Shown: in pieces, positions 14,404 to 15,904 of the stretch
Position numbering within the stretch: position 1 is the stretch's first letter
How the letters are laid out: each line of letters starts with the position of its first letter
NCBI GenBank assembly: GCA_025359885.1
Contig: JANYDG010000077.1
Span: 43,605-107,604, forward strand
Source: Acidobacteriota bacterium
GTDB lineage: Bacteria; Acidobacteriota; Terriglobia; Terriglobales; Acidobacteriaceae
DNA: 64,000 bases
Direction: 5' to 3'
Translations under genes and position numbers: made by a program
The notes under the pieces: generated by a model
The model's input: only the letters and a program-made list of their open reading frames with translations
Told to the model about the DNA's origin: nothing
Database searches by the model: none

Positions 14404-14527
14404 TTCTGCTCGCTGGTGCATCAAAGGCTTCAGCAAAGCACCAAATCTATAAAAGCCCTTGTTGTGGCGACTGCTGTCGTCGCGACGCTGCCGCGCGTTC
14501 ATCGTATATTCAAAATCCCGTAAAGCT

Positions 14528-14572
14528 TGTTCACATTACTGTAATCCCGCATTCATTTTTCCGTCCTATAGT
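14528..14572 (+). promoter_or_regulatory. Pho-box-like triple direct repeat with -10 element
   Basis: Three seven-base blocks spaced 11 bp apart, TGTTCAC, CTGTAAT and CATTCAT, are followed after ten bases by TATAGT. This copies the geometry of PhoB boxes (CTGTCAT-like repeats every 11 bp, then a -10). It is the main feature of the 340-bp gap 14404-14743 and precedes a phosphoesterase gene, leaving a leader of about 165 nt. Confidence 0.5.
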
Positions 14573-14743: not shown

Positions 14744-15904
14744 ATGAATCTGAAGAACACAGCGCTCGCCCTCTGCCTGACCGCCGCCCTCCCAGGCGCG
14801 CTTCTCGCCCAGAAGAATGCACCTCCGGCCCACCCCATCCCGCACATCGACCACGTCTTTGTGATCATGATGGAAAACCACGCCTACAGCCAGATCTTTC
14901 TCAATGCCAACGCGCCCTTCATCAATTCCTACGCAACCACCGTCAACTCCGCCAGCAACTACTACGGCGTAGGTCACCCGAGCCTGACCAACTACCTTGA
15001 GACGGTGGGCGGCTCCAACTTTGGCGTCGTCAACGACAACTCGCCTGACTGGCACAACACCACCTGCGTTTCAAACCTCTCGCTCAACGCCCCGGCCCTC
15101 GAAGGCGCACCAAACATCTGCCCCATCGCCGGCTCTGGTCTTGATGCCGCCACCCCCGCAGTCGATACCACCAACGAAGGTTCGCCCGACTCGCCGGTCT
15201 ATAACGATCCCTATGCTCCCGCACAGACCACCGGCGAAACCATCGTCGATCAGCTCGTCGCCGCCGGCCTCAGCTGGAAGTCTTACCAGGAAAATCTGCC
15301 CCCTTACGGTGCCGATTGGGTCAACAACAGCGATGGACTTGTCTCCAACACCACCGCTCCCGAGCCCGGCATGCCCAAGCTTTATGCCGTGAAGCACAAC
15401 CCCTTTGTCTACTTCAAAAACATTCAGGACGGCACCAACCCCAAGCTGAGCCTCAAGCAGATCGTCGGCTTTGACCGCCTCTGGGCCGATTTGAAGGGCA
15501 ACTCAGTCCCCAACTTCTCCTACATCGTCCCCAACCAGTGCCACGATCAGCATGGCCGCGGCGCCAGCGAAATGGGTACCGGCTGCAACGTTGACCAGAA
15601 TGACATTGCCCAGGGCGATGCCGCGCTCAAGACCATCATCTCGGCCATCAAGTCTGCCCCCGTCTGGAGCCATGGCAACAACGTGATTGTCACCGTCTGG
15701 GACGAAAACGACTACGGCACCGAGCCCAACCAGGTCGTCATGCTGGTTGATAACAACTACGGCGTGCACGGCATCAGCAGCAACATGAAGTTCAACCACT
15801 TCTCGCTGCTCAAGAGCCTCGAGGCCGGCTTCAACCTTCCCTACCTGAACCACGCAGCCGACTCGGCGACGCCAGTGATGGCCGACCTCTTCGCCCGTCA
15901 CTAG
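14744..15904 (+). CDS. Secreted phosphoesterase family protein (acid phosphatase / phospholipase C type)
   Basis: 386 residues with a cleavable signal (NTALALCLTAALPGALLAQ) and AAGGA ahead of the ATG. The FVIMMENHAYSQIF opening, YYGVGHPSLTNYLE, PNQCHDQHG and VIVTVWDEND blocks are those of the phosphoesterase family that contains AcpA-type acid phosphatases and bacterial phospholipases C. It likely releases phosphate from organic esters outside the cytoplasm. A Pho-box-like array upstream fits phosphate-starvation control. A bidirectional-looking terminator follows at once, so it is a single-gene unit. Confidence 0.88.
   Translation: MNLKNTALALCLTAALPGALLAQKNAPPAHPIPHIDHVFVIMMENHAYSQIFLNANAPFINSYATTVNSASNYYGVGHPSLTNYLETVGGSNFGVVNDNSPDWHNTTCVSNLSLNAPALEGAPNICPIAGSGLDAATPAVDTTNEGSPDSPVYNDPYAPAQTTGETIVDQLVAAGLSWKSYQENLPPYGADWVNNSDGLVSNTTAPEPGMPKLYAVKHNPFVYFKNIQDGTNPKLSLKQIVGFDRLWADLKGNSVPNFSYIVPNQCHDQHGRGASEMGTGCNVDQNDIAQGDAALKTIISAIKSAPVWSHGNNVIVTVWDENDYGTEPNQVVMLVDNNYGVHGISSNMKFNHFSLLKSLEAGFNLPYLNHAADSATPVMADLFARH

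Follow-up and report, generated by a model that had tools for sequence, protein, structure and literature searches.

The window, i.e. the whole 64,000 nucleotide stretch of DNA analysed here, carries a gene for a putative secreted phosphoesterase, preceded by three short direct repeats and a TATAGT hexamer (Table 1). The 386 amino acid product of this gene matches the Pfam profile PF04185 with an E value of 1.2e-21 and 77.8 bits, as compared to a curated cut-off of 23, while its matches to the NCBIfam models PC_PLC and acid_phos_Burk remained below their cut-offs, for which reason no substrate was assigned to the protein; a sequence-based search for a relative with a solved structure found none. 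According to the original prediction TGTTCAC, CTGTAAT and CATTCAT are spaced at exactly 11 bp and end ten bases before TATAGT, and both the coordinates and the 10 bp gap were confirmed in the sequence. The usual -35 region is occupied by the three-unit array (14528-14556), and a promoter scan found no conventional sigma-70 -35/-10 pair, which fits an activator-dependent promoter. The predicted 5′ leader is approximately 165 nt long, and an Rfam search of this leader matched no RNA element. A pair TTCAA-N6-TTAAA found in a same-genus relative (L006) resembles the possible extra pair that is located upstream of the array in the window (14509-14524).

Table 1. Features of the putative phosphoesterase promoter and gene (positions within the window).
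Feature	Sequence	Position	Strand	Basis and remarks
Possible extra pair	TTCAA-N6-GTAAA	14509..14524	+	Weak; upstream, 10 bp out of register; putative function
Pho-box unit 1	TGTTCAC	14528..14534	+	Read from sequence; conserved across homologues
Pho-box unit 2	CTGTAAT	14539..14545	+	Sequence; 11 bp after unit 1
Pho-box unit 3	CATTCAT	14550..14556	+	Sequence; 11 bp after unit 2
-10 element	TATAGT	14567..14572	+	10 bp after array; same gap in most homologues (to TANNNT) and in E. coli phoA and pstS
Ribosome-binding site (predicted)	AAGGAA	14731..14736	+	Sequence; 7 nt before ATG
Secreted phosphoesterase gene		14744..15904	+	386 aa; signal-peptide-like N-terminus; Pfam PF04185

The Pho box has been described as two 11 nt direct repeats with a species-dependent consensus (PMC4415409), and its spacing to the core promoter elements is strict (PMC10294691). 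Such an element has at least two direct-repeat units at a pitch of 11 bp and replaces the -35 element at about 10 bp from the -10 element; the window array comprises three units, with a gap of 10 bp to TATAGT. The phoA promoter of E. coli reads GTCAT-N6-GTCAC-N10-TATAGT, its -10 element being identical to that of the window, and the E. coli pstS promoter carries four units followed by 10 bp and TATTTT, so that these PhoB-dependent Pho boxes share with the window array the 11 bp pitch, the head-to-tail units and the distance to the -10 element. The units themselves are spelled differently, as E. coli employs CTGTCAT, whereas TTCAY, GTAAY and TTAAY are found here, with three copies at this site and four at others; a three-unit acidobacterial matrix fails to score the phoA promoter of E. 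coli, as is expected because this promoter has two units of the CTGTCAT type. The Pho boxes of the cyanobacterial regulator SphR, CTTAACCT, consist of at least three tandem 8 bp repeats with a 3 bp linker (PMC1906773), and resemble the window array in their 11 bp pitch, three tandem units and TTAAC-like core, but differ in consensus mix, phylum and regulator. Similarly, the PHO box of Streptomyces PhoP is made up of GTTCACC direct repeats (PMC4415409), and thus has a GTTCAC-like unit at 11 bp pitch, although PhoP is an actinobacterial regulator and the window array mixes in GTAAY and TTAAY units.

For statistical purposes the unit was defined as [GT]T[AC]A[CT], a definition chosen after the window had been seen; the pitch tests and the tests in relatives are independent of this choice, and because the definition derives from the window site it is the relatives that provide the stronger test. 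On both strands of the 64 kb window three such units at pitch 11 occur once, at 14530, while triples at pitches of 7-10 or 12-16 are absent; none of 100 dinucleotide-shuffled versions of the window contained the triple, and of 3000 shuffles of the 340 bp intergenic stretch just one did. Pattern searches of the 4.2 Mb genome returned the exact triple at the array site and in one GTCATAGGCTG tandem repeat, with no matches for the reversed-pattern control. A tandem GTCATAGG(CTG/GAG) 11 bp repeat at G000:C65:1616-1664 (L048-L050) is probably a simple tandem repeat rather than an operator. With a weight matrix built from other genera only, the window's genus having been left out, the array site ranked first of approximately 128,000 window positions, scoring 21.5 bits as compared to 8.9 bits for the next position.

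Ahead of 18 phosphoesterase homologues of the same family, the 250 bp upstream regions contained 27 unit pairs at pitch 11, as against 0-1 at any other pitch between 7 and 16, and shuffled controls of these regions contained a mean of 0.18 pairs and a maximum of 2. A second collection of 46 Acidobacteria-labelled upstream regions, which shares part of its genomes with the former set, yielded 49 pairs at pitch 11 versus 0-2 at other pitches, and the distance from a pair to a following TANNNT was 10 bp in thirteen cases, no other distance being seen more than twice; the 10 bp gap to TANNNT recurs in most homologue upstream regions. The strict unit pair was absent from 14 of these 46 regions. The three-repeat array in the window is not a product of chance.

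Instead of CTGTCAT, the acidobacterial promoters use units that vary between TTCAY, GTAAY and TTAAY. The original prediction had regarded the match of the individual repeats to CTGTCAT as moderate: the matches are indeed partial only, yet this does not count as a weakness because the lineage uses TTCAY, GTAAY and TTAAY units, and the CTGTCAT consensus defines the E. coli version of the box alone. Upstream of phosphoesterase homologues in proteobacteria-labelled genomes (L101, L102, L111, L126, L133, L148, L155, L163, L172 and L173) GTCAY units at 11 bp pitch prevail. GTCAY accounted for 16 of 24 units in these proteobacteria-labelled homologues versus 10 of 81 in the Acidobacteria-labelled ones, a comparison in which some metagenome bins may be mislabelled and for which the P value of a Fisher test is only indicative, as related species are treated as independent. 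The operator thus seems to follow the lineage, fitting the PhoB of the host, which we regard as a lead and not as proof.

The association of the array with phosphate genes was assessed in the genome itself and in its family. The same array precedes pstC in the window's own genome, scoring 18.5 bits with the other-genera matrix, which also detects a box before pstC in the same-genus genome G044 (15.8 bits), and a degenerate two-unit form precedes pstS in the own genome and in same-genus relatives. A search of 150 related genomes of the family for three units followed by 10 bp and TANNNT gave 75 matches, as compared to 2 for the reversed control. Among the 30 of these 75 matches that were examined for the downstream gene, three preceded pstS and others pstC, phoU and one PHO4 phosphate transporter gene; a PF01663 phosphodiesterase gene, two genes for SixA-like phosphatases and four for PF04185 phosphoesterases, one of which is the window gene, were also present, while some boxes of the family scan precede genes without a known phosphate link. 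The check proposed with the original prediction, i.e. a search for the same pattern before phosphate genes, was therefore positive, and the array is shared with core phosphate genes in the own genome and in the lineage.

Six boxes of the family scan (L069, L070, L071, L073, L082 and L088) precede genes for related proteins of approximately 470 amino acids, coiled-coil at the N-terminus and porin-like in the rest of the chain, which matched no Pfam family above cut-off (nor, for the four that were also compared to NCBIfam, any model above cut-off), and which represent a candidate Pho-controlled outer-membrane channel. Genes for SixA-like phosphohistidine phosphatases are located behind strong boxes in two genomes (L090 and L091), and a link of SixA to phosphate control is possible. 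Four further boxes (L078, L083, L084 and L085) precede genes for outer-membrane proteins with TonB-receptor or carboxypeptidase-regulatory domains, which suggests that the uptake of some unknown phosphorus source is under Pho control.

The genome encodes a PhoB-like regulator, a split PhoR and pstSCAB-phoU. The PhoB homologue adjoins the first part of phoR at the end of contig C42, and the rest of phoR lies together with pstSCAB-phoU on contig C90, phoR being split between these two contigs, while G044 displays the intact order phoB-phoR-pstSCAB-phoU. The PhoB homologue is 42% identical to E. coli PhoB and shares with it R193, R200, R201 and R203 of the recognition helix and T217 and R219 of the wing, residues which we take to contact DNA; the DNA-binding helix is thus conserved, though the best PhoB match of the genome scored below the strict cut-off of the PhoB equivalog model TIGR02154 (238.5 versus 296.2 bits).

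Taken as observed, the sequence and spacing of the array, its conservation, its association with phosphate genes and the presence of PhoB, PhoR and Pst make it very probable that the array is a Pho box, that is, a putative PhoB operator which replaces the -35 element and would activate the PF04185 phosphoesterase gene under phosphate shortage. The claim that the 11 bp spacing is the signature of such boxes gained support from the pitch, the 10 bp gap, the relatives and the E. coli promoters, as did the proposed agreement between geometry and downstream gene from the recurrence of the array before most acidobacterial phosphoesterase homologues. Under phosphate scarcity PhoR would phosphorylate the acidobacterial PhoB, monomers of which would bind the 11 bp repeats head-to-tail, and PhoB on the promoter-proximal unit would hold sigma-70 RNA polymerase on TATAGT, with transcription predicted to start at about 14579. 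The product would be a secreted PF04185 phosphoesterase, presumably freeing phosphate from organic esters.

Binding of adjacent 11 bp repeats is not unique to PhoB, and the genome encodes several other OmpR-type regulators, so the array could be the operator of another member of that family which uses 11 bp direct repeats; this is improbable, since the array recurs ahead of pstC in the own genome and ahead of pstS, pstC, phoU and PHO4 genes in relatives, and since proteobacteria-labelled homologues have GTCAY, the classic unit of PhoB, in the corresponding position. It is slightly less probable still that PhoB binds the array but represses the gene, or that the box acts chiefly together with further regulators: the PhoB of E. 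coli has a dual regulatory role (PMC10294691) and the out-of-register upstream pair hints at complexity, but the array is situated 10 bp before the -10 element, the position of activating Pho boxes such as those of E. coli phoA and pstS, and genes for secreted phosphoesterases are typically induced. Chance repeats of no regulatory role in an AT-richer intergenic stretch, a reading favoured by the shortness and degeneracy of single units, are strongly disfavoured by the marked preference for pitch 11 in both homologue sets (18 and 46 members), the family-wide excess over the control and the rarity of the triple in intergenic shuffles, and are scarcely credible.

An activating Pho box therefore remains the preferred reading, and judged by sequence comparison the array provides a sound instance of a known, standard bacterial switch in a little-studied phylum, its acidobacterial spelling being conserved across related genomes. 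Literature searches turned up no account of a Pho box in Acidobacteria, and in the papers found the co-mention of 'Pho box' and 'Acidobacteria' was limited to one passing reference to the Pho box in work on leaderless genes. More tentatively, and with a probability that we would place a little short of even, a lineage-specific acidobacterial Pho box (mixed TTCAY, GTAAY and TTAAY, usually three to four units, 10 bp before TANNNT) may define an undescribed Pho regulon, with the operator of one secreted phosphoesterase family respelled to the PhoB of each host. If true, this family, present in Acidobacteria and in proteobacteria-labelled genomes, would constitute a natural experiment in the co-evolution of PhoB and its operator. 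Soils poor in phosphate are enriched in Acidobacteria (PMC7593963), most of which are uncultured, and a usable operator definition would allow their Pho regulon to be read from sequence alone.
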